DNA of 64,000 nt, taken from the NCBI GenBank assembly GCA_029204225.1, contig CM055095.1, forward strand, positions 73,630,753 through 73,694,752, given 5' to 3'. Both the position numbers and the translations under genes were made by a program. The notes beneath the pieces were generated by a model. It was given only the letters and a program-made list of their open reading frames with translations, searched no databases and was not told the origin of the DNA. This DNA is from Diphasiastrum complanatum (taxonomy: Eukaryota; Streptophyta; Lycopodiopsida; Lycopodiales; Lycopodiaceae). Positions 25,861 through 64,000 of the stretch are shown here, in pieces. The first letter of the stretch is position 1. Every line of letters starts with the position of its first letter.

Positions 25861-28560
25861 AGAGCTTATATAAAATGTATATCAGATTAACTCTGATTTC
25901 TAACTATTAGATCTTGGCCTATATCTAGTATAAGGAAGCTTGTTAGACTTTCCATAAGATCCACCAATCTTATTGATGCTAAAAGGTAAATTTGGAAAGT
26001 TGAGACCAATCTCCTTTTCCATTCCATCCTTTTTGTTAACCATAACAAAAGCATCAAGCTTGAAAAGTCTACCTTGTCTATCGCCCCTAGCAAGCAAGAT
26101 GTTTTTCTTTGTAATGAAACAAGCATTGTGAAATTTTAGAGTAATGGACTCAATTTGATCTACAAATGATCAATAAGATGATTGGAATCTTGGAATCTTG
26201 ATCTATATCAAAACTAGCATCCAAATCTAGCTTTTGCTTGACAATTTCTATATATCCAAGCAAGAACAACCAAAAATAATGATCCAAAGGCTTCACATGT
26301 GTGAAGTACAACCATTGCATAACCTGCTAACAGAAATAAGTTTACTTAAGAAATACTAAGCATTCACCCACAAAGAACTTGCTTAAGAGAGTGAAAATAC
26401 CAAGATTGCTCCCAAAGCAATGTTTCTCATCATTAGCCTCCAAATGGATCTCACATGGATGATATACGCCATATATCAGCACATGTGAGATGGCTCATAG
26501 TGCTTGTCCATATCCACTTTGTCTAAGATTCCACAAAAGGCTAGTGTTGATCTTCTAGATTCCTACAATCTAGGAGATAACTCCTACAATTTATGAGATT
26601 TGACATTTGGCTCAAATTTCTATATACAATTGATCTAAACTTTATGCTTGACATTTCACACATGGGAGACCATTCCTACCCATGTGATATAACATTTTCT
26701 ACCACTAGAATGGTGCCAAGTGGCATAATACTACTAAACTAGTTTTTGGCCAATTTAACCACTAGTTTCCAAATTAAATGAGATGTACAACCTACATGAT
26801 CTATCTAAATGACTTAGGCATAGATTTCACACGTGGGAATAGGCTCCACACATTTCTAATGATGATAGGTTCAAGTCGTTATTGTATTTACAAGATTTGA
26901 TCAAGTTAGCTTTTGCCAATTCTAACACTCCTCCTCAAAACTAACTTGATAAAAGCATGATGATCTTAAGCTTGACTCCATGGGCTGAATTGGTCTTCAA
27001 AGATGGATCTTGCTAGTTCAAAGGTGTAAAGATCAGCCAATGAGTTTGATGAAGATCCGCAATCACCATATTCATGATAGTGCCTCGATGTCTTCTTTGA
27101 TGAACTTGGGAGCCTTGCACCATCCTAGCACCTCCAAAATTGATTCATTCCAAATTTCATGTAGATGCTTGACCTTGAGGCATTCTCTTTCTTGATGTGC
27201 ATGCTCCTCCTTGATGGAAATCCCAGACCTCCATGTCTCATGATGATCACACTACAAACATGATCATACAATGTGCACTTTCTATGATCATCAATATTAC
27301 TTATGCTAGAAACATAAGTCCAAAAATCATCACAACTTGGCATGATTTTTCTAATATTAAAATCAAAAAGTATTTCCATCGCAATAAGGCTAACTACTTG
27401 CTTATGGATATTAGTGTCCACTTTGGATGCTTCACTTATTCTTATAAGAAGTTTACAACTTGCCTCTAAGATTGAAAATTTACAATTTTCAACATTATGA
27501 ATGAACACATCATTCTTGATCTTATTGAAAAACTCAAACATCTTACTTTTGGAATCCAAAAGCTCAATCCAAGTGTATCTAGAGCAACCATCAATAAAAG
27601 ATACATACATTAATGCACCTCCATTAGATGCTTGTGAAAAAGAGTGCACATCACTATGAATGGGATCTGATGACTTAGAAGATCTAGTAGAAGAGTTAGC
27701 AAATGGTTGCTTGTGAGCCTTTGAGAGGCTACAAGTCTCACAACTCTTTCCACACTTTGAAAATGCTTTTGTAAGGCTGAGTTCAAGCTCCTTTGTGCAT
27801 ATGATCTCCATAGATTTGAATTTGGGGTGGCCCAACCTCTTATGCCAAAGCTCCACTTGTGTAAGCTCTTCCTTAGCCATGTTCACACTTCCAAGAAACA
27901 CATTAGCATCAAGCTTAAATAGCCTCCCTTGCTTAAATCCCTTTAGAATGCAAGTGTCATTCATCACAATAGAGCAAATACCTTGCTTAAAATGGACATC
28001 TAAACCACTATCCATTAGTTTTCCAACACTTAGCAAGCTCTTAGTAAGATTAGGACCATAGAGTACATTTTCTAGATCCAATCTTTTAGAAGATCCAAGA
28101 CTTAAAGATATTGTTCCCACTCCATCTATTCTACATTCTTGATCACTTGCTGTTAGAATAGATTTTTACAACTTACAAAAGGTACAAGAGTTGAGAAGAA
28201 ATCCTTTTGGAATGTCATGTGAGAACTAGCCCACTATCAGTCCATCATGTGTCATTGGAGTAGCTCTTGCTTGTTGGAGTAGATGCCATCAAGGATGAAT
28301 CAACTTCATCCTCATAATCCTACTCCTCCTCAAGGATAAGGTTGCCTTGCTTGCTCTCACTTTGTGCATTCTTATTTTTGTAGCACTCGAATGCAAAGTG
28401 CCCCTTCTTTCCACAAAGAAAGCACTTTTGTTTGGCTTTGTCTTTTCTCTTTCCTTTAGAGCTTGATTCTTGATCATCATCACAGATTTCACATTTATCC
28501 AATGGTTTGCTGTCATGTAGAGAGAGTCCAATGTGAAACACTGCCTCTACCATCTAGAAA
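25860..28560 (-). mobile_element. Broken Ty1/copia element, minus strand
   Basis: On the minus strand: gag zinc knuckle CFLCGKKGHFAFECYK (about 28.45-28.37 kb), protease/pre-integrase with KQGRLFKLDA and ELWHKRLGHP, integrase start with SDPIHSDVHSFSQASNGG (to about 27.5 kb), then 3' coding end, polypurine tract and an LTR beginning tgttagaattgg near 26,936. RT is absent. A further pre-integrase scrap lies at about 26.1-25.9 kb. Several breaks and at least one inner insertion; older than the element at 48.2 kb but of a related family, sharing the CACATGTG/CACGTG-rich LTR style. Confidence 0.8.
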
Positions 28561-30330: not shown

Positions 30331-30658
30331 TTTTTAGTATATAATATTTTTTAATATTTAATATATTATTGTATTTTTTTTTAACCTAATTCCCCCTCCC
30401 TCGCTTCATCCCCCTCCCTCGCTTCATCTCTCTCCCTGCCCGTCGCCCTACTGTCCGCGCCCTCCCTACTGTTCGCGCCCTCCTTGCTGTCCACCCATCG
30501 CCCTACTGTCCGCGCCCTCCCGACTGTCTTCGCATTGCACTGATCGCGTCCTCCCCTGCTATTGCTATTTCGGCCTTTATTGTGGTTTTTTCAAGCCTTC
30601 CGACTCCTATCGCACCCACAGAGATCTCTGCCTTCTTTCCCCAGTCTTTTCTACAGAG

Positions 30659-33600
30659 ATGGTGCATTCCAACCTTGCCGATCTGTTGGACGAGGTGGAC
30701 ATTGTTAGGCGGGTTCCCGACAAGTCTAACAAGTCCGGTGCAAGGATAGTGCGCTGTCGATATTGCCTGACAGAGTTCGTTGCCACCCTCACTCGCCTTA
30801 AAGGTCACCTACTCGGCGCACGCGCGAGAGATGGTGGCACACTTAATGCTGCCCCCTGTGCCAACATGTCCATTCCCGTCAGGCAGGGACTTTTGGATAC
30901 CTACGGGCCACGTCTTGTGGCGGGGGAAAACACCATTTCGGAGGGTGTTCTTCGGTTTTGCACCGCTCCTTACGTGGTTGACCCCGAGTTGCTGCCTGCT
31001 TGGCTGGCACGCACGAGGAGAGGGAGTGCATCCTCGTCCAGTCCCTTTGCCCCTCGTCCCTCTCAGACAGTTCCGCCTCACGCACCCCCATCTGCACCCA
31101 TTCCGGTGGACCCTGTCCCACCGCGTCCGCCAGTTGCCACTGTGGTTCCACCACCACCTACTGTTGCTCGCACTCCCCCAGTTTACGACTTTCTCATGGA
31201 CTCTCCGCCTCCAGAGCAGGAGCAGGCCCCGGATGCCAGTGACGAGGCCTTCCAGGATGTTGAGGAGATCCCTTCCTCCCTCCCTTCACATCCGGATGAC
31301 CACCCTACCCAGCAATTTTCGTATCCCATGCCAGCTGTGCACCCTCCACCAGTGTACCCCACTTACGCTGCTGCACCCATCCCGGCCAGTGCATCCCACT
31401 CTCCCCATTCCACGTCTACAGCTGATGCATCCACTAGTGCCCAGGCTGTCGCGTCATCATCCATTCCCGTCACGTTTGGTGCACCGTGCTGGAGGTCCGC
31501 TACCCGTCACCCAGCTGGGAGAGTTCTTAGGCAGCAGAGCATTCGCGGCGCGCATCAGCTGCACATGGATAGAGAGGCCACACAGGCCGTGGCCAGCCTG
31601 ATTTATGAGCTGAACCTTCCATTTGCCATCACCGACTCCGAGCCCTTCAGAAGGGCCTTCCGCCTTGCACAGTCTGTCAGCCCCAGCTGGAGAGTCCCTA
31701 GTTCAGAGGTAAGCGGTACAGTGTTGTAATTGTTCTTTATCTTTTCAGTGTTTGCTAGTTTGTTTTTCTGTCGATGTTACGTTTTTTCGTAATGCCCTAA
31801 ACCACATGCCTCTCACCTGCAGGATGACAGAGCTGAAGTTCATCTGGGAGACGCGGTGGAACTACTTCCACAGGAGTATCCACAACGTTGCACACATGCT
31901 GCATCCCCTCTTCCTCTCTCCGACACAGATCGCAGACATGGAGCTCGAGGCCGATTGGCTTCAGTACATTCACAGGGTGGGTCCACACATAGGTTTGGAT
32001 CCTATCAAGCTCATGGAGGAGCTCGCTGCATTTCGTTTCGACATGGGCACATTCGGCCACCCGGCTGCTCAGGATCCAGAGAGGAGGCAGCTACCCATTA
32101 CCTGGTAGACCATGTTCGGTAGCACATACCCATCTATACAGCGTCTTGCACTGCGTGTCCTTTCTCAGGTATGCATCTCATTTTATCCTCCATTGTTGTG
32201 TTTCGTTGAAGACAATGTGCTGAAGTATTTCAATGCACGCACCACAGGATTGTGCTGCCTCCGTGTGTGAGCGTAATTGGAGCACATGGGCACTCATTCA
32301 CACGAGGAGAAGAAACCGGTTGTCAGTGAGTCAGTTGGAGCGGTTGGTGTTCTGTAGCACCAACGCACGTCTCGCCAGGAGACTTCCGATCATTACGAGC
32401 GCATTGTAGGTGATAAGCTAACCTTTCATAGCATGTTGGTTGACTCCTGGTATGTTGGTTTCATTTCTTGATAGAGTTGTTTCTCTGACATGCCAATTTT
32501 AAACCTTGCAGACGAAGATATCCGATTTGGAGCGCCAGGTTGACTTGTCTATGGACAGCACCCATCCCATGCCTGCAGATGACCTGGGCACACAGTTGAT
32601 GGCAGAGAGAGAGAGGGAGCTTGTCGAGATGAGAGAGAGAGAGACAGAGCTTGGGCTTGATCACAGAGAGCCCCCATTGTACGAGGCAGATGAGCCAGTG
32701 TCAGAGGATGATCAGGATGAGGATGAGCCTATTTGGGTTGTGTTCGCCAGATCAGAACGGGATGAGGCATATGATACAGGTGTTGGGCACACGCCTAGAG
32801 CAGGGGTCATAGGTGCATCACGTGGTAGAGGTGGGACACATGCCACAGATTATACCGGGAGACGGACAGGGCACACAGGTGGGGCCAGTGGCATACCTTC
32901 TTATGTTGATATGATGGAGGAGGCTCTTGATAGGGGGCAGACTGATTTGGGTTTACCTTCTGCAGCTGCTTGGATGAGTGCATCACAGAGCCATAGGCAT
33001 TTCTATGACAGCACACCAGAGGAGTCACCAGATGACTTTGATTGTACCGATTGGGAGGCCATGCCGGGTCCGCATGGTGCACAGGATGAGGCACGGGATG
33101 TTCCCGAGGATGGTGTTTATGATGAGTCCCAGAGCCCAGACCATTTGTATTCGGATGCCCAACTGGACGACTTGATTGCAGACTTGGATTCAGAGGCCCA
33201 ACAGATGCCAAACGTCAGGGCACCCCCATCCTCTCTAGCCAACATGCCCTACACAGAGTCTCAGCCAGAGCAGCTACACGAGGTGCCTGCAGTTCCTCCA
33301 GTTCCTCAAAGGGTGTATGTGCGCCGCACAGCACCTCCAGTGCCACGGATACCGTTGAGGCTTGCAGCCCCTTCATCGCCATCCACTTTTGCAGCAGCAG
33401 GCCACCATTTGTGCCCAGATCTTCTCTTGCAGCACCCACATCTACAGATGCTCCTCCAGTGGCAGTACCCACAGCACATCCTCCTCCATTGGCAGCACCC
33501 ATGGCACCGGCTCCTCCTTTGGCAGCACCCACAGCACATCCTCCTCCTTTGGTAGCACCCAGGATGTACCAATACCGTCCACCACAGCACCCCTTTCAGT

Positions 33601-33998
33601 ACTTATCATCGCTGTACTTGCCTCCTACAGGTACGGCCCCTCCACATCTAATTCCTTCACCAGCAGCAAGCCCACGGGCACACACTCCTCGGACCTATCC
33701 TCCACTATCAGCTGCACAGGGATACCCATCTTTGGCTACTCTATCCCAGCCGGCCGCAGCTTGGGCTCAACCTAGTCAGTCAGGTGATCTGCATGGGGGT
33801 GATGAGGCATTGACGGCTCCCCTCGTCCGCAAGAGGCCAGGAAGGCCCAAGGATGCACCGAACAAGAAAGGCAGGGCACAGAAACTGCCAGGGAAAAGAG
33901 GACGACCTCGCAGGGCTCCAGTTGCTGGTAGAGGTGCTGTATTACAGCCAGCTGCAGCAGGTGTTGTTGGTTTAGCCTGTTTGGGGGGTGATGCATAG
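30659..33998 (+). pseudogene. hAT transposase lacking catalytic core, with AT-hook tail
   Basis: Exon 1 (30,659-31,708) starts MVHSNLADLLDEVD and has a BED-type zinc finger (C33, C36, H50, C67; VRCRYCLTEF...RLKGHL). A Pro-rich linker follows, then the start of a DUF659-like region (NLPFAITDSEPFRRAFRLAQ). Later exons (31,823-32,168; 32,248-32,405; 32,512 on) carry the C-terminal dimerisation domain: DPERRQLPITW, MFGSTYPSIQRLALRVLSQ, CERNWSTWALIHTRRRNRLS. The 300-400 residues normally between them, with the DDE core, are missing. Exon 2 is out of frame with exon 1, and TAG replaces the second Trp of the ITWW motif at about 32,106. A long acidic then Pro-rich tail ends in AT-hook motifs (KRPGRPKDAPNKKGR, GKRGRPRRAP). 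Not an active transposase as it stands. Confidence 0.75.
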
Positions 33999-49091: not shown

Positions 49092-52000
49092 TGGTATCAG
49101 AGCTAAGTAAGAGAGTGATCATTGAATCATAAATCTTGTAAAGATCATTGGCAAAATTTGTTTTTTGGCCAATACTAGTGAGGGCGAGTTCTTCTAGAGT
49201 GATAGCTTGTAATCATTTGGATAAAAATGACTTGGAGGCTGTGTATGTACTTTTCACACGTGTGAAACCGTACAGCAACTTTCAATTCAAGTTACTTTGT
49301 GTTTGTTGGTCCCAAAATCACAATACTAGTTCATTTTTGGTGCTTTTTGAAGCATAGTATTGATCTAGATTCATTCTAACTAATGCCTATGTTCAAATAG
49401 TGTTTTGGATTATTGAAGCATTTCTTTTTAGAGTCTAAGATCAGATCTTAAGAGGCTGATTTGTTCAGATCCTTAGTTGAAGTGAAATCTCTAAGAAAAG
49501 TGTAAAGCAATTTTTTTGTGAGAGTGAAGGCTAGAAATTTTTGGTAAGATCTTTGAGTATCATTCAAGCTTGTGTGCTAGTTTGATAGAGACAAGCCTGT
49601 AGGCATTCTAGAAAGCTTTAGGCCTTTTCATAGATCTTTTAAAATTCAAAAATCTTTGTGATTTTTAAAAGAGCATTCATTCTAAAATGTCATCCATGGG
49701 TGGATATTTGATGGAATCAAGTGAGAGACTCACTTCCACAAATTATTCCATTTGGAAAGTGAGAATGGAATCACTCCTAGTGATCCATGATCTATATGAC
49801 ATAGTTCAAGGAGTAGAGGAAGAGCCTCAAACTCCCCAAGAACAAGCCAAATACAAGAAGAGAGCAAGATTAGCTCTACATTGCATAAAGTTAAATGTAT
49901 GCAATGACCTCTTGAAAGAGGTGTCTTCTTGTACCTCATCCAAAGAGGCTTGAGATTCATTAAAGAGCATTTATGAATCCAACAATACTTCAAGAATCCT
50001 CATGCTAAGAAATCAAGTTTTCCTAAGCATGAAAGGAAGTGGAGAGAGTGGACAAGAGTATCAAATCTCTTAACAAGGAGTTAAGTGCAATAGGAGAGAA
50101 GATCCAAGATCAAGAACTAGTACAAATCATTTTGAATGGTCTAAGTGATGAGTTTACCAACTTAGTCCAATCATTTGCCATTCAAGACTCTCTTCCATCC
50201 ATTGAAAAGTTGCACAATGTTCTTGTGGCCGAGGAGAGTAGGCTTCTACACCTCAAGACAAGAATGGATAGCATGTCACTTAATGGAGGAGAGGAGAAAG
50301 CTAACTTTACATCTAAAGGCAAGAAAAAGCAAAATCCATTCAAGAAAAATCAAGGCAAGGAGGCCGAGATGAAGAATGAAGGATCTACCTCCAAAGGCAA
50401 AGTGAAGAACAGGGCAAAACTAAAGTGTTTCTTTTGTGGAAAGAAAGGACACTTTGCCTCAGAATGCTACTTGAAGAAGAATCAACAAGCCAAAGGAGAT
50501 CAAGTGAACATTGCTCAAGAGGAAGAATATGAGGATGGATTCAACACATCCTTAATGGTTGCATCTACACCAACTTCAAGTCAAGACACATGGTGGATAG
50601 ATAGTGGGGCTAGTTCCCACATGTCCTTTAACAAGCATTATTTTTCTACTCTTCTATCTTGTAATGAGTCTAAGAAGTCAATATACACTGCTAGTGATCA
50701 AGCATGCAAGATAGATGGCATAAGATCTATACCTCTTTGTTTAGGCACATCTAAAAGGATAGATCTAGATAATGTTTTGTATGTTCCTACCATTTCAAGA
50801 AACTTGCTTAGTGTAGGACAATTAATGGACAATGGACTAGATGTACATTTCAAGAATGGAGTTTGTTCCATCTTGAAAAATGATAAGTGCAAGCTAGTGG
50901 CATTAAGCAAGGTAGACTTTTCAAGTTGGATGCTAATGTTGCAAGTGAAAGTGTGAACTTAGCTAGGGAGGAGCTAACTCAAGTGGAGCTTTGGCATAAG
51001 AGATTAGGCCATCCTAATCTTCAATCTATGGAGTCAATGGCAAGCAAGGAACTAGCTCTCGGCCTACCAAGAACTTTCAAGAAGTGTGGAAAAATGTGTG
51101 AGGCATGTGGCCTTGCAAAGTCACACAAATCTTCTTACAAGAAATCTTCATCAAGATCTCTCTCTCCCTTGGATCTCATACATTCTGATGTACATAGTTT
51201 TTCACATGCAAGTAATGGAGGTGCCTTGATGTATGTAACTTTTATAGATGATTGTACTAGATTCACATGGATTGAGTTACTATCAAAGAAAAGTCTTGTT
51301 TATGAAGCTTTCATTAAGTTCAAGTCTCTAGTAGAGAAACAACTTAGTACTTCTATCAAAGCACTAAGATGTGATAATGGAGGAGAGTACACCTCCAATA
51401 AAATGAAAGACTTTTGTGAGATCAATTGTATTAAGTTACAATACACTTGTTCCTACACCCCTCAACAAAATGGGGTGGCCGAGAGGAAAAATAGGAGTCT
51501 ATGTGAGTGTGCAAAGTCCTTGAGGCTTGATGCATCACTTTCTATCTCATTTTGGGGAGAAGCCATAACATGTGCTAATTATTTGTGTAATAGACTTCCT
51601 AGTAGTGCTATAGATGGGATCTCACCTTATCAAGCCTTGTTTGATAAGAAACCCAATGTAAAAGATTTTAAGATCTTTGGATGTACTTGTTATGTACACA
51701 TTCCTTTGGAGACTAGAAGGAAAGAAGATGCTACCTCCTTCAAAGGAATCTTTGTTGGCTATGGAGAAAATAGCAAGGGATATAGGATATATGATCCTAC
51801 ATCCAAAAAAGTAAAGGTAAGCAAGGATGTACTTTTTGATGAGTCACAATTTGCTAAGAGCTTGTCAAATGGATCTAACCCATTGTGCATTGAAGATCTT
51901 GACAAATCCGAGGAGGATCTTGACAAACCCGAGGAGGATCATGACAAACCCGAGGATGGAGATTTGGATCCGAGTCAAAAGGGGCCAAGAAGATCATCAA

Positions 52001-53668
52001 GGAGCAAGGCCGAGCCCTCAAGGCTTACCTATGTGGACAAGGGAAAGCAAAAGGAAGGCTCTACATCTTCTACCTCTTACTCTTTTTTAGCTACATTGAT
52101 TGAAGGACCATCATCTTTTGAAGAAGCATGTAAATCTAAAGTTTGGAGAGATGCAATGCAAGTAGAGTATGATGCATTAGAAGAGAATCATACTTGGAAT
52201 CTTGTAAATCTTCCAAGAGGAAAGAAACCACTTGCATGTAAGTGGATTTATAGAATTAAGTACAATCAAGATGGATCTATTAGTAAATACAAAGCTAGGC
52301 TTGTTGCTAAGGGATTTCTTCAAATAAAAGGATTGGATTATGAAGAAACATTTGCACCTGTAGCTAAGCTTGTAACTATTAGATTAATCATTTGCATTGC
52401 TACTTTGTTCAAATGGGATCTCTACCAAATGGATGTGACAAATGCCTTCTTGAATGCCTTCTTAGAAGATGAAATCTACATGATGCAACCCGAGGGCTTC
52501 ATCAAGGTTGGTGAGGAGCAAAAGGTGTGCTACTTAAGGAAGAGCCTATATGGCTTGAAGCAAGCACCTAGAGCTTGGTACTCTAGGTTGCATGATTTTC
52601 TCTATTCCCTTGGCTTTGTACTAAGTGCTTATGAACCTTCTTTATATTTCAAATGTAATGAAGGAAAGATCATCATTTTGGTTCTTTATGTTGATGACAT
52701 CATTATGGCAGGAAATGATGATGATGGCATAGGCAAAGTAAAAGTTGACTTATCTAGTGAGTTCAAGATGGTAGATCTAGGCTTCCTTAAGTTTATAATT
52801 GGGATAGAAGTGTCTAGAAGTAGCAATTGTACTTTCATAAGTCAATCTAAGTATGCTACTTCCATTCTTGAAAGATTTGGTATGAAAGATTGTAAGGGGA
52901 TTGACACCCCTATGGAGCATGTTGTGAAAGCAACTAATGAAGGTGATGAAGCATCCTTTGAGGACATCACTCTCTTTAGGAAGCTTATAAGCTCTCTAAT
53001 CTATTTAACTATCACTAGACCTGACTTAAGTTTTTGTGTAAGCAAGTTGAGTCAAAGTATGCAAGCTCCTTTAGTTCATCATTGGAAAAGTGCCAAGAGA
53101 GTACTTAGATGTGTTTCTAGTACTAGATTTTTTGGCATACTTTATGAAGGATCTAACTTGCACTTGAGAGCCTACTCGGATTCAGATTTTGCAGGTGACA
53201 AGATGGATAGGAAGTCCATTAGTGCATTTGCAACATTTCTTTGTGGAGGAGTAATATCTTGGCTTTCCAAAAAGCAAGATACAATCTCACTATCTTCTTG
53301 TGAAGCCGAGTACAAGGCATTGACTTCAACAACCAAAGAGCTCCTATGGCTAAGAAGACTCTTGATGGAACTACATGTGCTAGAGGCCGAGGAGATCCCT
53401 TACATATTTTGTGACAATCAATCTTCTCAACAAATTGCTTCAAATCCTATCTTCCATGCTAGAACAAAGCATATTGAGATAGCTCACCACTTTGTGAGGG
53501 AGAAGGTACAATCCAAGGAAGTGCAACCACATCATGTACCATCATCCGAATGCATAGCTGATATCTTAACCAAACCATTGTCCAAAGATCCATTTTTTAA
53601 GTTAAGATATGCTCTTGGAATTGTAGATAGATGTACACTAGATTTGCCAAGTTAGAAGTGAGGAGGAG

Positions 53669-54535: not shown

Positions 54536-54925
54536 TTTCATGATATTGTAGGTTGATCATGTGTTGATCAAGTGTCATTAATTCTATGTGTTGATTTTGC
54601 TAGTTTTGTGCAAGAAAGAGATTTGAGAGGTTCCATATCTTTGTGATTTATTCTTGGATTCATTTGTTGACTTTCAATGCAGTTGTAAGTGCATTGGAAC
54701 AGGTTGAATGAGAAGATCAAATCATTGCAACATGGCTACATATGGAGGCTTCATGTTGGAGAGCAATGATGGGCTTATCTCAAGCAACTGATTCAACTTG
54801 GAAGGTGAGAATGAAGTCTCTCCTTGAGATGAATGAGTTAATGAATATTGTTTTTGGTGTGGAGGAAAGACCTTTGGCACCTCAAGAACAACTGTTGGCA
54901 TTCACATTAGATTAAATGTGATACG
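54536..54925 (+). mobile_element. Older copia leader and gag start, right part
   Basis: Continuation of the element into which the young copia jumped. It reads into a decayed gag N-terminus and stops matching near 54,925, where the four-gene block begins. Confidence 0.5.
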
Positions 54926-54986
54926 AAAAATTGAAATTAAGTATCATATCAGAGAGATTTTTGGCGCCCAGGCTTTGAAAATAGCA

Positions 54987-56336
54987 ATGGCAAGGAGACC
55001 TAGATCTACAATCGAGTCTGTGATTCTTTACAATGAGAAAGATGAAGCTGATAACTGGAAGCCAACAAAATATACGAAGAACCCATGGGTATTGCTGCAT
55101 CCATCATCAAAGGGCAATTTTCGACAAAAGAAAAGAGCAAAAATGACTTACAAATTTTATTGAAAGCAAAAATTTTGGAGTTTAAGACTACCCCGAGAGG
55201 TCAATCTATATCAGAAGCCTTAGTACAACATGTATATATGCATTCAAAAATCAAAGTACATGATATCAATCCTCATGATCATCAAAAATATAATTGTAAG
55301 TATATCAAAACATATGTACTCTACAGCAATCATAGGTGATTTTCTTTATTAATGCTCTTCAGATTATGATTTGAATGCTTCAACATTGTTTTTTTCTTTC
55401 AGGTTTATATCCATCATGCATAAGTGAATGGGAGCCCGCACAATCACTTGTAGGAATATTAGATGTGATTCACTCTGATGTTGGAAAGCTGCAATACAGA
55501 GGAAGAAGTCCAAAGGAACTTGCAGATTGTGGTATCTATTTTTATGAATCTTTATATAAGCCACAAACAGATGAAAGTTTTGGCAAGCTCAAAGCAATTC
55601 CATTGCCTAGTTTTCAAAGTGATGAGTGGCCTACTCCTGACAGCATTGTTTCTGAATCCTTGAGATGCAAGCTACTCATGATAAGCACAGGCTCGAAAAT
55701 TGTTCACCTAAGTTGGTTTATCTCATTACATATATTTGTTGATCTTTTCTCGAGTGCTAGTGTTCGTAGGACACTAACTTTATTTGTTTGCAAGGATTTA
55801 TCAGATGAGACTTTGTCAGATCTCATGGATCAAGGCTGGGATAGTAAAACAAATAATGACATAGAATGCAAATTAAAAAGTCCTCAATGATCTTTCGATA
55901 TCATATCGAAAAGCAAATGCTCAGTCTCACATTTAGCTACCAGAGATACAAGAAAATTGAAGGTACATGGCTACCACTGGATCAAGACTTTGAACTAAAT
56001 GGTCACACAAACCGAATGGAGATAAGCATTATCTACAATGAGGAATATTTGACTATGGTTGAGGTGGAAGAGCATTGGAAGCTTGATTTTATCAGAACAG
56101 AGCTCATGCTATTACAAACCAATCTACCAACATATTTTAGTCTTATCATCAAAGGAAGACTCGTAAGTATTTTATATTTATTGCCATTTCAAAATAGGAC
56201 AAAATAATAGAAAATGTCATCATTTACAATTGCACATTCACTAATATTTGCCATGTCACAGATGCGAAAAAGACAGGCGCTGATAACGTGCTGCAAAGAT
56301 CTACCTACAACAATCACCATTGTGGGAGAACAATAG
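54987..56336 (+). pseudogene. Gene 1 of block: unknown spliced protein
   Basis: It starts at an ATG, MARRPRSTIESVILYNEKDE, shortly after the edge of the copia relic. A GT-AG intron (55,296-55,402) joins ...HDHQKYN to LYPSCISEWEPAQSLVGILD in phase. A second intron (56,163-56,261) leads to a last short exon ending TTITIVGEQ and a stop at 56,334-56,336. An AATAAA lies at 56,382. The protein has a GRSPKELADCGIYFYES segment and a C-terminal part with LTFSYQRYKKIEGTWLPLDQ. I recognise no domain. The reading frame is interrupted about twice, so this copy is probably inactive. Its 3' end faces that of gene 2 about 190 bp away. Confidence 0.5.
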
Positions 56337-56529
56337 TTTCAAATAAACTAAGTAAAACTCTGTGTATACACTTTTTCATTCAATAAATGAAAGCCCAAGT
56401 TGGGCATCAGTACATGTATTTTGTGCTGCCAAATTCATAAACTGGAACAACATTTGATATATCAATGTATATTTTCTATGAATTCTATACATGTATTTTT
56501 GTTCTATGCTATCTATATTTGTTTAGATC

Positions 56530-58184
56530 TTAATTTAGTATAACTACATCATCCTTTGCACCATCATCAATAACGGGAGGCTGAAGCCTTGCCCTAGCCA
56601 GTATACTCAGGATAATTTCTTGTCTAAATCTGTACACCTGGCTTGATGTGTACTCAGGAAGTGTAAACTGCAAAATAGAACATTATGTATTAGTAATGGC
56701 CAAAAACATCAACAAAATAGGAAACTAATCATGATTCCAAAATAAGAATAAACAGAATTTATTACCTTAGAAATATCAACATCTTGCTGAAGGTTGAACC
56801 ACTCAAAAAATAACTTTGCATTGTATAATGTGTACCACCCACATTAGAATATTGATTTCAAAATGCTATGAACAGAGTTTACCTCCAAACTGACGATCTG
56901 CCAGTCCACGGAATAGGGAACATCTGTAGGAATATATTTACTTAGATATGGAAGGTATATGTCTACATCCTTATGTGTATTTCTTGTCAAATTCATCTTG
57001 ACACAAAAGCCTTTAATAATATTATCTACAGATCTCTTAATAGAGATCAGGTTTAAACTCCAATGGTCACTACAAAATAAGATTGAAATTTCTTTAGCTG
57101 CAATTCTGAGAACTATTTCCATTGACAATGCCAATGTTAATGCATAAAACAGCAAGAAGCATTTGATATATCTTACTTCGTATGATAAGGGATGAGCAGA
57201 TACTTTGTTGCTGGTGTGAATCCACTTGTCAGACACTGTGACAAAGTGTCATTATTCTCCTTGAAGGCTTGAAGCAGAAAGTTACTCAGCACCAGCACCT
57301 CATTGGATGAATCTCTTGCAATGTCATATTGCAAGAGTGTAAGCCCGGACTCCATCACAGGATCACTGATAGAAGCCCGTCTGTCTTTGAGATCCAAGCA
57401 ATCTAGAACTCTAAAATTAATACTAAAATCAAGTCCATCTAGTCTAAAACAAAAAGGAGTACCAATTGTATCTAAAGTATCGGATATATCTTTCTCAAAT
57501 TTAAGATAATCATCCGAATCTATATATGTATAAAAATTTGGAGGAGGAGGAGGAGGTGGATGTGTAGTATCTACAGGTTTTAAAGGGGTATCCAAAACAG
57601 ATGTAGCTATATTTACAACATTATCAACAGCAGAGTTATCTACAATGGATTCCGGGTTAGGCTTCACAGAATCTGTGGTGTCTACCCTCCTTACTTTCTT
57701 TGGAGCTCTCTTGGGGGCTATCTGCTTCCTAGGACGCTTCGTAGGAAGATCATTCCTATCTAGAGGAGTTGGTCTAGGAGCAGCAGGCTGAGATACGTGT
57801 AATCTACAATACCTATCTCTCATTCTCATCAGGAGCTAAAAATCCTTGGGCATTATGGTGACTCTCTTGGAATGGATTGCAAGCAAAAAAGAATCCTTAA
57901 AAAAAAGGCTAATGTAATCTTCAGCAGCCTCCTGAAGGCACTGAAGAGCACTGGGTGTGAATCTAACTAGCTGTCCGAGATCATTTCTTGTTATGTTTCG
58001 GACAGCACGATAGAATGGAACTCTTGGGATCAACAGAGCTGTTGATCTTTGATACTTGCGTATCTCAGAGAGCCACCTGTTGCAGTTCGCGTTCTAGGTT
58101 TAGAGGGTGGTGTAATGGCAACCGCAGGACTGAGGATGAGCCAGGAGAGAAGAAGTGTCTCCTTGTCTGCTTGCTCCTACCCAT
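56530..58184 (-). pseudogene. Gene 2 of block: histone H3/CENH3-like domain followed by Ulp1-like cysteine protease
   Basis: The first ATG reads MGRSKQTRR, like the H3 tail. The histone fold follows: [18 protein letters not shown] (alpha-N), [12 protein letters not shown] (alpha-1), [18 protein letters not shown] (alpha-2) and [14 protein letters not shown] (loop 2). A basic linker (KRPRKQIAPKRAPKKVRR, a possible nuclear signal) and a Pro run come next. Then there is a Ulp1/C48-like region: LLIPYHT, an intron (57,176-57,070), DHWSLNLISIK with the catalytic-type His, TDVPYSVDWQ, and CGWYTLYNAKLFFEWF with the likely catalytic Cys. A last exon (56,667-56,530) ends PPVIDDGAKDDVVILN. Ulp1 proteases cut SUMO-like proteins. 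The frame is interrupted about four times, so whether the two domains were one protein is unproven. Confidence 0.7.
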
Positions 58185-58201
58185 GGACGTGTACTATGGG
58201 A

Positions 58202-59001
58202 TAGCGGACTTGTGCGTGACGGTTAGGATGAGCAGGGAGAGATGATAAAGACCTCGCAGAGGACCGATATATACGGACAGAATGTACGGTATATCGGACC
58301 TGTGCGAGCCGACTATAAGAGAGAGAAAATAGTTTTGAAGAAAGACGCACAAGTGCGATACAAGGAGAAACGTAGGCAGATGTATCAGACCTGTGCGCAT
58401 GGAAGGCGGTAGGAGGAATATCGATTGTGAAGGACGCGCACAAGTGCGATATGCGGAGCAAAAAAAAAAGTGAAAAAAATTCATCGAAGTTTGTGATTTT
58501 ATATCGCGGTTTGCACGTGCGAAAAAATGTCTTGTCACACGTGTAGGAGTTGTACGGACAAATGCGAGAGTGACACTGTCACCTTGTCACATTACACGTG
58601 TGGGATTTGTACGAGAAAATGCGAGAGCGACACGTGTTGTCGAGCAAATGAATGAACACGCGACACGTGTCCAGGTGTCATTTCACACATGTCCAAGTGT
58701 CACCTCACACGTGCCAGTGCATGTAGTCCAATTGAAAGTAGACACGTGTCCTTTGTCCGTTGACCACACATGCAAACATTTAGTATAAATGGCACAAAAG
58801 TCGATTAATTTTTTACCTTTTCCATTCTCTAAATTGGCGGCATATCGCACTTGTGCGCGTGCATTGTTGTCCATTTGCTTGCAACGATACCTACTTGCGC
58901 AGAAGTGGGATATTCGGTATCTGCCTGACATACATATCCCTCTTGTGCGCCATTTTGATAGTCAGTTTTGTTTCAGTTCTCCCTCTCGCACAAGTGCGAT
59001 A
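58202..59001. promoter_or_regulatory. Divergent promoter with alternating 15-bp motif array
   Basis: The motif CGCACAAGTGCGATA or its complement occurs ten times, with some variation: near 58,202, 58,255, 58,293, 58,346, 58,382, 58,437, 58,843, 58,898, 58,935 and 58,987. Orientation alternates strictly. Pairs span 67-70 bp and recur about every 90 bp. One copy lies just upstream of the gene 2 ATG and one ends 14 bp before the gene 3 ATG. A TATAAAT at 58,784-58,790 would serve gene 3. Likely protein-binding sites; the binder is unknown. Confidence 0.75.
58514..58748. promoter_or_regulatory. Cluster of seven CACGTG boxes
   Basis: CACGTG at 58,514, 58,538, 58,595, 58,631, 58,664, 58,708 and 58,743, several as acacgtgt. 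In plants CACGTG (G-box) binds bZIP and bHLH factors. Two imperfect units of about 60 bp (cttgtcac...acgtgt...atgcgagagygacac) make up part of the cluster, which sits between the two arms of the 15-bp motif array. Confidence 0.8.
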
Positions 59002-59015
59002 TTCATGTTACTGCC

Positions 59016-60532
59016 ATGGCCTCTTCCTCAAGATCCTCACGAGATTCAGGCTTGAGTTCATTTCTTAATGAATTTGAGATTACTGAAAACCTAGACTACT
59101 TCCACAGCCTATTCAGGCCATATCTACATGTTTTCAGGACTGCACAACCAAATTTTGATGTATTTTATGAACATTATGTTAGATTCAGAGATATACTTAG
59201 TAAGCATGTTTTCTCCATAGGTCCACTCCAGTACATGCATTATACTGATCTTGTTCATTTCTTCCCAGCTTTCAAACATAGACTGGATAGAATGTTCACC
59301 AAATTGCTTGATCTTTTCAAAAGCAGTTCAACGTGTCCGCATTGCAACAAGAAATGTCGATTGGTTGAATATCAGAGTGGTTTCGTACTTTTTCTATCAG
59401 TTCAGATCCCAGATGATGAGGAAGTTTCTGTTGCTGACCCTCCTTTTGCATCATCCTTTGTTCAGTCAGTTATTAAGGATATCAGTCACTTTCTTATCGA
59501 CACTCCTGATAAGGAAAGTGACTTTATTGATGTAAATACTGATGTTCTCCGGGATTCTTTTATTGGCCAAAATACATCTGATGATGAATCCAACCCTATA
59601 GAAGAGTCGAAATGTCCTTTCAATTTGCCTGCATATTATATTAATGACGATGTATATTTTACTACTGTTGATTTATGTAAATTTTTTTACTATCGTGAAG
59701 ACAAGGTTCTATGTCTATTATCAGGCACAATTTTCGAATTCTCCGACTTTGTAGATTTTGAAACAGATGACCTTGTTGCTAGTATTGATTTTGATGATGA
59801 GGAGGGACTTATGACTGGTGAAGAATGCCTGACTAAGACTTTATCAAATATAGTTGAGGATGGGCGAGGCAGACAATCCGATGAAGAATTCACGACATTT
59901 CAATCCTAGATGGGCTTCCCTCGTCCATCATTAATGCATTTCACTGATGATTCCACTTCAATACGTGGTCATTATATTGATCATCCTGATCTGGTTGCTG
60001 CTGATGATGAAGAATGTGTAAGTGTTTAAACTTTCTTGCATTAGAATGTTTTTAATCACTGAATGTGTTGTTGCTAACATATTTCCTATTGCAGGATGCT
60101 CTCATAATAGATGATTTTGCTATGAGACGAGGTGGTTTCAAACAACTCGCATCCTCGTTCCAGAGGGACCGTGGACTGGGCCACTATCTTAGGCATTTCC
60201 TGAAGAATGATATCTGTATTGCTCATTCCGAGCTGAGCCCAGTTGGGGAGAGTCTTATAATGGCAGTTAAAGCTTTATCATTTTACCTAGGAGGACATAA
60301 ATTTGTTAAGACAAATAAGATCCTTTTTGTCAAAAGATCTTATGTTTTGAACATTTTAGACTTTACTGATGGGAATGTTCCTTTAAGAAGTTCCCATTAT
60401 TCATTGTATTCCACTTATATTGAGCTTAGTGGAAATAAGGATAATGCACATCTATTAGATGCATACGCTAGCAAAGAATTTCTTCATGACAATACTGCCA
60501 TAGAATCTGACACAAGATCTGATGATGAATAG
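59016..60532 (+). pseudogene. Gene 3 of block: unknown acidic protein with a Cys4-like motif
   Basis: The ATG at 59,016 (MASSSRSSRDSGLSSFLNEF) has a strong plant context, gccATGG. The first part is rich in aromatic residues and predicted helical (YFHSLFRPYLHVFRTAQPNF), followed by CPHCNKKC, a possible metal-binding knuckle, and long acidic stretches (NTSDDESNPIEES, DFDDEEGLMTGEE). A GT-AG intron (60,018-60,094) joins HPDLVAADDEEC to a second exon with GHYLRHFLKNDICIAHSELS and KALSFYLGGHKFVKTNKILF, ending SDTRSDDE. One in-frame TAG at 59,907 lies before the intron, so either a short protein is made or this copy is broken. I recognise no family. It diverges from gene 2. Confidence 0.55.
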
Positions 60533-61009
60533 TTGACACTTTGTATTTTGGTATAATACAATCAATACATTTACATTGAGTATTTCTCCTCTCTTGCTCA
60601 ATGAATTTGCAAAGCAATTCTGAACGTGTCATGATTTGATGACAATGATGATCTTCTACTCAGCAATCATCTAACTTTATCTTCCTGTATGAACTTGCAT
60701 GCCTTTCTAAACTTCTTGTATTGTGTGGACTTTGTTATATGTCGAATCTGAACTCTGCGGTAGAACCACTGAAACAATTGACAAATGGTGTTTCGTTTTT
60801 CAATGGTTCCTCCATGTTGTGTATTTCGATGAAATGTTGCTCATGCTTGCCAATGTGACTTCTGCATTCCTTGTGATGACCATACACTCAAGCTTCCATA
60901 TGTATTTGCAAAAAATGTTGTATGATCTCTTAGTATGTGCTGCATATGTCAAAATCATAATGTTAGTCTTACGTTTAGATCTAAATATATATGAGAATTT
61001 GAAAGCATT

Positions 61010-63305
61010 TTGAAAATTTTATACTAACCATGTAATGAGTGATGTGATCTTCTCCCCGTGCTTTTGATACTGCATTAACAAACTCGACACAAGTCCTTTG
61101 GACAGCTTTCTTATCAATATCAGAGTATTTTTCTTTTCTTAAAATAGCAATCATACTATCAAGCTTTTTCCATACATCAACTTTTAGTACTCTGGTTTTG
61201 CCGTCTTTCTCGAAGTCGTGAGTGGCAGCAATAATATCTGTCCAGACTGAGTGTTGAATATTAGAAGCCTTACCAGTATGATTTGATAGGAAATGACGTG
61301 CTTTTGCTCCTCCTATGCTTGTCTTAGTTGGCATATTCCCATTCTTTTCTGAAAGCTTTTCATCTTTTTGAATTTTGACATGTCCTTTATGGAGTCCTGC
61401 TTTTGATAAAACGTCTTCTAATCGAGAGATAGTTTCCTTTGCTAATGATGATGGCTTAGTATTCCAAGCAAAAACTACATGAAGATAAATGATCTTTTCA
61501 TTAATCTAACTTCTGCATGAAGAGTGCAAACATGCACATTTTTTAAGGGGATAGGCAGCACAGGCTTCCAGTTTGGATCGCATATTCTCTATTAATTCTT
61601 GTACTCCTAGTTACATCTTTTGCCATTTTCATACAATACAAACAAGGGTGTTTTGATGTAGCACCGTGAGAGACATTATACATACATTTCAATGTTTTCA
61701 TATCACCTGCTAAGTGCCATTCAACATTGAAGTCTCCAACTCTTGGAACATTGAGAAGTCCTCCATCCATATGGTCCTTGATGATCCTAGGATAAGATGT
61801 CCTTGAGAATATCCATGATAATATATCATGATCCTCTTTCAGCACCTGTCCAAAGAATTAATCAGACTTACTTTACAATGTATTAATACTATTCAATGAA
61901 TGTAATGTAATAATGAGGCTAGTTATCTGAAACGCTACCAACCACCATATATCATTTTCTAACTGGACACTAAATCTGAAATCTTCTTGGTTCTCTGTTT
62001 GTGATAGAGCACCATTCATGAGAGTTATACTAACCCGCTCCACTTTCTGCCCTTTCACAATTTCTGACTCATCTAACTTAAGTACTATGATTATTTTGCC
62101 ATTTACCTTTTCATAGGTTATATCATAGAATGTGTACCTCAGCAAGTAGTTTAGATCAACAAATAAATTGTTTGATGAACTATAGAATATCGATCTTCCA
62201 TCAATTTCATATACCTTAATATGAAATGGAGTTCCAGTGATCTTATGCATACCTATGTTTAATGTATCCTTCTCTTTCTTCAAGTGATATGTCCTAGGGA
62301 TTGGGACTTTTCTAATTTGAACTTGCTTAAAAGCTTCTCTAATTAGTTTAAATATTGTTGCATATGCTTCCCTACTAATACCTGCAAAATCACAAGCACC
62401 CTGAACTATAATCTTATCTAAATTTTTTTGAATGTCCACCATCAAAGACTCTGTTATTTTACACTTTACATTTGAAATCCTATTGTTCATCATGATACGC
62501 TCAGTGGATTTGCAAGTCAATATTGTGCCCAATGACATTCCTAGTGAAGCATTGTCTTTAATATTCCAAGGAGCTACTAATGCAAATCTGCAAAAAAAAT
62601 AGATAGTTAACAGAATATCACCATAGCTGAAATTAAATTCAAATGTCATTGAAAAACTTACAAAAATCAGAATATGCTTACTTGAATGCACGGATCCTTC
62701 TATTTCGATAACCTCCTTTTGAAAGCGTTTGAATATCCTTGCAACTTTGTTGCTTTCGCTTCTTACTTTTAGTCTTCTTCTTTGTCAAATCCACATCCTT
62801 CAATAATTGTAAGTTTTCAGTACAAATAGACTGTAAGACTGATTGCATTTGCTCTAGTTCTTATCTGATATTGATTGTTATCTTTTGTAATGATTTATTA
62901 TCTTTTCTAAGTTGTTCATTTTTTTCTAACGTCTTTTGGAGATGACAATCTCTATTCTGACAATAAGAGGATATCCGAATTAACTCACCTTCTAAAAAGT
63001 GAACTTTATTTATACAAAGTTGTTTTCCATGGTTCTGCAATCTTTCACAATATCCTAGTAATCCACTATGCCCATTGCATATCCATGTAACTAAATGAGT
63101 TATTGAAGAGAATGTGGGATGTGTCAAAGTGCTTGGATCTTGTGGATATAATGTTCCATCTATCCACAAATCCAAGTTTTTTTTTTCCTTCTGCCCTGTA
63201 ACGAGAACGATCCTCAGCAGATATTTGAATTCCTTTGCCTCCTCTTCTCTGCAAAGGTGCCAAATCAATAGGGATATCCACATGTAGATGATACAATGTC
63301 ATCAT
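61010..63305 (-). pseudogene. Gene 4 of block: transposase-like protein (RNase-H-fold candidate) with zinc-type CxxC insert
   Basis: It starts near 63,305 (MMTLYHLHVDIPIDLAPLQR). A leading domain with DPSTLTHPTFSSITHLVTW and CNGHSGLLGYCERL is followed by a coiled coil and a Lys-rich stretch. Introns lie at 62,681-62,588 and 61,938-61,846. The central part has KIIIVLKLDESEI (candidate first acidic site) and DFNVEWHLAGDMKTLKCMYN (candidate second), then ATSKHPCLYC. Next come PVLPIPLKNVHVCTLHAEVR and a C-terminal helical region with KASNIQHSVWTDIIAATHDF. Acid-beta-strand, GDxK and CxxC in this order resemble RNase-H-fold transposases with a zinc insert, as in RAG1/Transib, but I cannot confirm homology. 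The frame is interrupted about twice, once by a long T homopolymer. Confidence 0.5.
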
Positions 63306-63400
63306 CAAAAAAATAATAGAGTAATCAGTTGCATCAAAGTATTATGACCAGATTCTATGAAGCAAAACAAAATACTCATCTTTGATTATATTATATACTA

Positions 63401-64000
63401 TGTACGATCAATCCAATCTCCATGCTTGTATGCTTGATTCAAATTTGAAAATGCCACTCATTTTTTCATTCCAATAGGTAGTTGGCGCTCATATTTTCAT
63501 TCTCGTGGAAGGAATGCATATGTAAATATTTTGCAATTTTTCCTGATTCGAATTTGGGGATGGTGGTCATATTCTAGATCCAGTGAAAATATTGCCCTTT
63601 TCGTAACCAATGGAGAGAATATTTTTGAATTTAGTCAATTTATACTACGAACTGTTAACAGTTCTTAACTGTGACTATAGACGTTGTGGTTAGATCATTG
63701 GGAGTTGGGGAGGCCTTGGGAGTGGTGTGGGCAAGCAAATAAATGATATGGTTTTTTTTTATTTTGATATTTTGATATTTTTCTATATCCTACATGGCAT
63801 TCCTTAAAGGGTCTTTTTGATATTGAGAACTCCTCTAATGTCCTTCAAAGTTTAGGGTCTTTAATCAATCATACGACTATACGTGGTAAAGAGGGTGGTG
63901 TTACAATTCTTGTAAAATGTCCATGAGCACTTAATCAACAATTTTAAGGCACACAAGATGAAGCTAGTACACATACACCAGATAGAAATAGGATGTCATC
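63401..64000. other. Right edge, no gene seen
   Basis: AT-rich DNA without a convincing coding frame. It may contain the right edge of the four-gene block, but no terminal repeat is visible. Confidence 0.4.

Follow-up and report, generated by a model that had tools for sequence, protein, structure and literature searches.

Transposons carrying a histone H3 gene and transposons carrying a Ulp1-type (C48) protease gene are each known, and the protein described here is a new combination of these known kinds of cargo. In fungi, hAT elements of Pyrenophora tritici-repentis (H3L) and Pseudocercospora fijiensis hold a captured H3 in tens or hundreds of copies (PMC3538342, PMC6710886). As far as the accessible parts of these papers go, the fungal elements resemble the transposon family found here (F1) in being DNA transposons with terminal inverted repeats (TIRs) that amplify an H3-like gene. 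Moreover, the fungal H3L fully matches neither H3 nor CenH3, and the same is true of the transposon-borne H3 described below. The arrangement is different: the fungal H3 is a separate ORF without a protease, accompanied by a hAT transposase, whereas in F1 the H3 is fused to a C48 protease and the candidate transposase (gene A) has no Pfam family above cut-off. The P. fijiensis hAT is flanked by an 8-bp target site duplication (PMC6710886). On the protease side, Kaonashi (KI) MULEs and CACTA-ULP elements are, like F1, multicopy plant DNA transposons with a C48/ULP domain (PMC6117577, PMC2528002). These elements are members of the Mutator and CACTA superfamilies and, in the available text of these papers, are described without a histone part, whereas F1 shows no Pfam transposase. 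The animal Ginger1 DNA transposons encode a protein with an Ulp1 (or OTU) domain, for which a role in transposition was suggested in the portion of the paper at hand. In Ginger1 the fusion partner of the protease is a Gypsy-type integrase, in some cases with a PHD domain (PMC2836005); in F1 it is a histone. The accessible parts of the literature on H3 with Ulp1 and on transposon-borne H3 or Ulp1, which included few subscription papers, name no H3-Ulp1 fusion.

The locus lies within a 64,000-nucleotide stretch of the Diphasiastrum complanatum genome (assembly GCA_029204225.1, contig CM055095.1, positions 73,630,753 to 73,694,752), hereafter referred to as the window. The gene of interest, labeled gene C, spans 58184..56530 on the minus strand; the limits given in the original prediction, which was made from the sequence alone, correspond to its ATG (58184) and to the last base of its stop codon (56530). 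In order, gene C encodes an H3 fold, a basic linker and a Ulp1/C48 protease, distributed over four inferred exons (Table 1). Their borders were set by comparing copies, splicing being deduced from DNA. An 85-residue ORF of the window (58093..57836, minus strand) matches the Pfam Histone family (PF00125, E=4.1e-24), and in the same frame a TAG is followed by more open sequence. The H3 residues cited in the prediction are all present, namely the additional residue in loop 1, RFT, EAAEDY and KDF. The prediction had placed the histone either next to the protease or in fusion with it; the latter is the case, as in other copies the H3 and the N-terminal half of the protease share a single exon 1. 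The window copy of the element (63841..54893) itself is dead. In its gene C the ATG is out of frame with the H3, a TAG interrupts the frame and exon 3 is without its start and splice acceptor. Structure prediction for the window H3 ORF alone was of no use (pLDDT 53).

Table 1. Features of the transposon copy in the window (window coordinates)
Feature	Position	Strand	Basis
Remaining F1 transposon; 3' end and its TIR missing	54893..63841	-	blastn of L019, L021, L024, L020 and upstream piece of L021
5' TIR, starting CATTAGAGGAGTTCTC on the minus strand	63806..63841	-	36 of 36 bases equal to the 3' TIR of L019
Gene A fragments, candidate transposase	60981..62784	-	ORFs; LKLDESEI and LAGDxKTLK..HPCLYC by eye
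Gene B, divergent from gene C	59016..60532	+	ORFs, ATG
Region separating the divergent genes B and C, with nine copies of the 17-bp motif RTATCGCACTTGTGCGC in both orientations	58201..59002		at most 3 mismatches
Exon 1 of gene C, encoding the H3-like tail, the H3 fold, the basic/proline-rich linker and the C48 N-terminal half	57177..58184	-	ORFs and copy-to-copy splice borders
H3 histone fold, 76 residues used as query	57839..58066	-	Pfam PF00125, E=4.1e-24
In-frame TAG directly after KDF, interrupting the window copy	57836..57838	-	ORF reading
Gene C exon 2 with DHW (expected catalytic His)	56883..57069	-	most aligned copies keep GT/AG borders
Gene C exon 3 remnant with CGWY (expected catalytic Cys); start and splice acceptor gone	56766..56843	-	copy comparison
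Gene C exon 4 up to the stop	56530..56667	-	copy comparison
Gene D fragments	54893..56207	+	ORFs, within the aligned element

Gene C is accompanied by three other genes, gene A upstream in the same orientation and genes B and D on the opposite strand. By eye, gene A resembles a DDE transposase (LKLDESEI, LAGDLKTLKCMYNVSHGATSKHPCLYC). Two pieces of gene A gave no Pfam family at E≤10; in further Pfam scans at E≤1 gene A had nothing above a cut-off, the only match being a chance-level one to PmbA_TldD (E=0.32, below its cut-off). A search of gene A against PDB revealed no relative, all three of its rows being at chance level. At 14 places, paired by eye, the gene A match begins 3.2-3.7 kb upstream of gene C (among them C8:2.455 Mb, C19:24.03 Mb and C9:50.90 Mb). 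Homologues of gene B from the L021 and L023 copies had no Pfam family above cut-off. The 17-bp motif between genes B and C has nine matches in the whole window, all within the array, with 0.18 expected. Such an array recalls the binding-site arrays of CACTA elements, except for its internal position.

The window contains other mobile elements as well. A Ty1/copia retrotransposon coding region with long ORFs occupies 50033-53655 on the plus strand, and a fragment of another Ty1/copia retrotransposon is present at 27125-28165 on the minus strand (both by Pfam). A GC-rich (0.54) region at 30362-33998 contains overlapping ORFs of 276-455 residues; the three ORFs scanned, out of four, have no Pfam family at E≤0.01.

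To define the element, the whole assembly (1.745 Gb, 5176 contigs) was searched. The 76-residue H3 fold returned 6171 first-look candidates, and all of the best 150, the ones that were scored, matched at 87-100% identity. Because some of them are near-identical assembly duplicates, these 150 matches represent places rather than independent insertions. Within 20 fetched 10-kb stretches the homology is co-linear and ends abruptly, and the flanks differ between copies. The ends lie about -5825 and +3640 from the H3 fold, both with the inverted repeat CATTAGAGGAGTTCTCAATATCAAAAAGACC. At up to 3 mismatches, the TIR pattern occurs 1185 times in forward and 1261 times in reverse orientation genome-wide, compared with 0 and 0 for a reversed-pattern control. 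Inverted repeats at both ends and occurrence at many places are the hallmarks of a TIR DNA transposon. The host of gene C is thus a TIR DNA transposon of about 9.4 kb, family F1, for which we leave the superfamily unassigned; among the scanned proteins of the element Pfam detected no CACTA, MULE or hAT transposase, and the element was filed under none of these. A 9.45-kb TIR pair (C1:48368841-48378291) has 3-bp TCA flanks on both sides, a possible target site duplication. At four other usable TIR pairs no duplication is visible, and one further pair is an inverted duplicate; in this check some pairs were assumed from neighbouring TIRs.

The original prediction suggested a mobile element, and this proved correct, the H3-Ulp1 pair being repeated at many loci inside a TIR transposon. 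The opposite outcome considered in it, a local decayed replicative H3 with no second locus having H3 beside Ulp1, is itself refuted. A chance similarity or a local decayed H3 gene was rejected: the 150 of 150 scored matches are spread across the genome, and F1 is just 53% identical to the host H3 genes.

Two regions of C1, 65.0-66.7 Mb and 95.0-100.6 Mb, are dense in exact TIR matches; along the first run these are mostly in plus and then mostly in minus orientation. None of the best 150 H3-fold places falls within these runs. Two protease places lie in the second run, at C1:96.34 and 97.15 Mb, as do three short matches to H3 at C1:98.3-98.6 Mb. Perhaps these runs are duplications or non-autonomous derivatives. 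We also considered whether stop codons bear a signature of silencing. In 98 interrupted copies 162 of the 192 stops are TAG, yet this is no excess, because exon 1 of L019 has 11 CAG codons as against one CAA and no CGA. Among viral contigs there were five pattern matches, none confirmed as a relative.

The protein could be reconstructed from copies less damaged than that of the window. An alignment of 18 copies and the window revealed three short introns with GT/AG borders in most rows and decayed borders in some. Five of the 19 rows were spliced by script (the others lacked a border matching the script patterns), and three of the five have open frames: L019 (470 residues), L023 (479) and L026 (473). 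The Pfam scan of spliced proteins covered L019 and L023. The Histone family (cut-off 26.4 bits) was matched with E=1e-27 (97.3 bits) and E=3.1e-24 (86.0 bits), and Peptidase_C48 (cut-off 20.7 bits) with E=1.1e-10 (42.2 bits) and E=1.3e-7 (32.1 bits), respectively. The downstream same-strand protease with HW and CGW motifs, proposed in the prediction to be C48-like, is therefore a Peptidase_C48 above cut-off in both proteins. Against PDB, the best 60 of 192 matches of the H3 domain are all named H3 or histone-domain chains; the domain has the complete PF00125 fold and H3 as its nearest solved relatives, as a core histone H3 should. For the protease, a profile built from three sequences detected at E≤10 solely yeast Ulp1 (1euv, E=0.0067) and 6dg4, a Ulp1-like SUMO protease (E=0.03). 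It aligns HW, PQQ (or similar) and CG with the His, Gln and Cys of 1euv, and the Asp of the triad has no clear counterpart at its place in this alignment. In 20 distinct copies, most of them chosen for long frames, the H3 and the protease N-terminal half are present in all 20, exon 2 in 19, exon 3 in 16 and exon 4 in 17. The 16 exon 3 matches keep the Cys in 11 cases and have W or Y instead in four, and one match misses it. The linker between H3 and C48 is basic and reads like a nuclear localisation signal.

The fusion is not peculiar to a few copies. With the 327-residue exon 1 of L019 as the query (9915 first-look candidates), all 122 scored matches span at least 311 residues in one frame, covering both the H3 and the protease N-terminal half at 84-100% identity; 24 of the 122 have no stop. 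Since the ranking prefers full-length matches, H3-less relatives may exist alongside them. The fusion is also found in a second family, F3, of which one copy (L045) was read. Its MARMKQTTR... tail is followed by an H3 fold (Pfam E=2.2e-24), a basic linker and a stretch related to the N-terminal half of the protease, in an order co-linear with that of F1, with 34% identity over 312 residues. Pfam reports no C48 in this F3 piece, which covers the N-terminal half of the protease. Among 128 scored F3 places (67-100% identity), 84 contain a complete H3 fold that shares one frame with the protease stretch and 111 have at least part of the fold together with the protease stretch. The remaining 17 stop before the protease stretch, and in four of these a second piece covers it. 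A third family, F2 (L043, C10:2472950-2474400; L044, C17:36125700-36127000), is a repeated H3-like gene with a proline-rich tail. Its H3 fold ends in ARRLRRER(T/N) followed by a stop, and in these two copies no protease is found in about 0.9 kb downstream of the fold. Many rows of about 45-52% identity in the host-H3 search may belong to F2. The architecture is thus real and present at many loci, and its expected encoding by one mRNA is supported by the inferred splicing. Judging from the sequences, the H3-Ulp1 fusion is general and old.

Is the histone half an H3 or a CENH3? The residues noted in the prediction had pointed to plant CENH3. With hand-entered CENH3 reference rows (A. thaliana, maize and others), F1 (L019) is 53% identical to host H3, 48% to A. 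thaliana CENH3 and 50% to maize CENH3. The corresponding values, relative to the same rows, are 46, 47 and 44% for F3, and 55, 45 and 52% for F2 (L043). Pro63 and (by eye) Ala65 are common to F1, F2, F3 and two plant CENH3 rows. Compared by eye with H3, loop 1 is longer by one residue in F1 and by four in F3, and no longer in F2. Of the residues typical of A. thaliana CENH3, Asp98 occurs in F1 and F3, Trp84 in F3 and Phe124 in F1. Taken together, the transposon-borne H3 resembles plant CENH3 (hand-entered rows) in an LLIPxA-type motif, a longer loop 1 (F1, F3) and Asp98, and differs from it in the 48-50% identity of F1, a tail that starts RxKQTxR and the protease that follows. In the H3/CENH3 tree, a check suggested along with the prediction, F1 and F3 group together (support 89/86). 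The transposon rows and plant CENH3 (hand-entered rows) fall on one side of a branch with 72/92, not starred, and the transposon rows together with all CENH3 rows are separated with 72/83. The AU test, with groups chosen once the first tree was known, rejected forcing the transposon rows with canonical H3 (p=0.034) but did not reject placing F1 and F3 alone with plant CENH3 (p=0.099). The CENH3 affinity is weakly supported: Pro63, Ala65, loop 1 of F1 and F3, the tree and the AU test speak for it, and the greater closeness of F1 and F2 to host H3 speaks against it. We consider descent from a CENH3-like gene somewhat more probable than the contrary. No host CENH3 was recognised among the best 150 genome matches of A. 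thaliana CENH3 or of its C-terminal part; the host gene may be split by introns, divergent or masked by the transposon copies.

The idea that such a histone might direct the element to centromeres was not supported, as the top-scoring copies are scattered. The clustering test used 104 F1 and 111 F3 top-scoring places on the large contigs, which merging of places less than 0.8 Mb apart reduced to 95 and 91. Pairs within 5 Mb numbered 29 for F1 versus 24.1 expected (sd 4.8) and 23 for F3 versus 22.3 (sd 4.4), with ten chromosome lengths guessed, unplaced contigs omitted and centromere positions forming no part of the test. No centromere clustering was seen among these copies, both families being spread about as expected.

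The tail of the histone half is informative. Canonical H3 begins with ARTKQTARKS. The F1 tail reads DRRKQTRRD, with K4 in all 18 script-matched copies and, by eye, in L013 and L014; position 5 of the 18 copies is Q in 13, H in two and a stop in three. By eye, 14 of 15 aligned copies have no other lysine in the tail. The F3 tail, ARMKQTTRL, has one extra lysine at position 19. R2, K4, Q5, T6 and R8 are thus kept in both families, which lack K9 and, by eye, anything matching the K27 motif. Within the fold, every one of the 15 F1 copies retains K115, R116, V117, T118, K122, H113, D123 and R129; all but the last belong to the nucleosome-type contacts. The H3-H3' interface residues H113, R116, D123 and R129 are therefore intact in every one of these copies. 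Several H3 DNA contacts are lost in F1, namely Y41, R49 and R63 (the latter two in 15/15); at position 72 the Arg remains in 8 of the 15 copies.

Selection on gene C was assessed in 15 of the 20 distinct copies. L003, L006, L014, L015 and L016 were omitted (short locus or shifted frame), L017 and L018 are segmental twins of L016, and L001, L002, L004, L005, L007 and L008 repeat other rows. Biallelic sites were divided into those shared by three or more copies and singletons, and out-of-frame ends were masked. In the protease N-terminal half, which played no part in choosing copies, the ratio of replacement to silent changes is 5:14 for shared sites and 40:12 for singletons (Fisher p=1.8e-4; neutral expectation about 2.5:1). 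For all non-H3 segments it is 26:38 versus 90:33 (p=2.9e-5). The H3 fold alone gave 8:19 and 12:14, a difference that is not significant (p=0.26). The low singleton ratio here stems from having picked copies for their similar H3, and this test by itself is therefore not decisive for the H3 part. The plain dN/dS of the fold, 0.13, is biased in the same way, the copies having been chosen by H3 similarity and long frames. Nevertheless, the retention of the H3 fold in both F1 and F3 argues for constraint on this part as well. As shared changes in the protease half are mostly silent and singletons look neutral, constraint acted on the coding sequence during the multiplication of the element, and its later decay was about neutral. 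Our confidence in the anatomy, a gene C fusion within a TIR transposon, together with coding constraint during multiplication, is very high.

What the protein does is a matter of more tentative interpretation. Our working explanation, held with modest confidence, is that the gene C product may be a chromatin-tethered deSUMOylase that opposes the silencing of its own element. The domain content, the fusion, its conservation and its constraint are established, and H4 pairing, deposition, SUMO cleavage and an effect on silencing would be the further steps. The H3 half would pair with host H4, and host histone chaperones would carry it to chromatin, thereby tethering the protease there. The tethered protease would then take SUMO, or a modifier related to it, off histones or silencing factors near the element, and silencing of the element would be delayed. 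Moreover, because counterparts of K9 and K27 are absent from the tail, nucleosomes holding it could not bear those marks on this histone. In the accessible parts of the literature, a link between SUMO and silent chromatin is described for yeast, plants and animals (PMC8131101), and histone desumoylation is connected with transcription elongation (PMC8216275). Features that would favour the explanation are the one-frame fusion, the open spliced frames, the co-linear F3, the constraint on the protease, the kept contacts, the K4 tail and the alignment of the C48 part with yeast Ulp1. We count against it the lack of a clear triad Asp, the Cys kept in just 11 of 16 exon 3 matches, the loss of several H3 DNA contacts, the non-significant selection test of the H3 fold and the lack of a Pfam C48 match in the F3 piece, all of which would weaken it. 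In addition, according to the available text of the respective papers, SUMO was considered an improbable target of the Kaonashi ULPs of MULEs (PMC6117577), and silencing in Arabidopsis did not require one particular SUMO contact (PMC6084981).

A close rival, although we consider it rather unlikely, is that the protease protects the protein itself: a SUMO protease fused in cis would spare a CENH3-like histone located outside centromeres from SUMO-targeted ubiquitin ligases. In yeast, Cse4 SUMOylated at K65 is ubiquitinated by Slx5-Slx8 and degraded, which keeps mislocalised Cse4 out of other chromatin, whereas SUMO on K215/K216 helps deposition, so that deSUMOylation might hinder too (PMC13079627, PMC8216275, in their accessible parts). 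Such protection predicts a fusion in cis, just as found, and is in line with the plant-CENH3-like residues and tree position of the transposon-borne H3. However, most aligned F1 tails have a single lysine left, the CENH3 ancestry is weak and the degradation route is known here from yeast. Less probable still is a reading in which both ideas meet, a centromeric-type histone turned into a counter-silencing tool. Predicted to be nucleosomal, devoid of K9 and K27 sites and equipped with its own SUMO protease, it would escape SUMO-dependent removal and bear no repressive marks.

It is also conceivable, but improbable, that the histone half is the active part, sequestering H4 or H3-H4 chaperones or poisoning nucleosomes and so weakening silencing generally, with the protease secondary. 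The intact H3-H3' interface and the absence of a protease from about 0.9 kb downstream of the H3 in two F2 copies fit such a decoy, whereas the clearest sign of constraint falls in the protease half. A slightly poorer candidate yet is a targeting device, in which the histone half binds nucleosomes, perhaps centromeric ones, and guides the transposase complex, the protease being an accessory. The fusion is encoded next to gene A, the candidate transposase, within one element, but top-scoring F1 and F3 copies are not clustered, and guidance of insertion to centromeres is unlikely. Finally, passive cargo, a host H3 or CENH3 piece captured by transduplication and merely copied along, has a precedent in the H3 capture by fungal hAT elements (PMC3538342, PMC6710886, as far as available) but is close to refuted, as two families only 34% identical both keep both domains in frame and replacements are depleted among shared changes.

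A transposon-borne protease joined to a histone names its likely workplace, chromatin. The fusion also makes the function testable, in terms of H4 binding, entry into nucleosomes, SUMO removal and weaker silencing. Gene C may show that selfish DNA can recruit centromeric-type histones.
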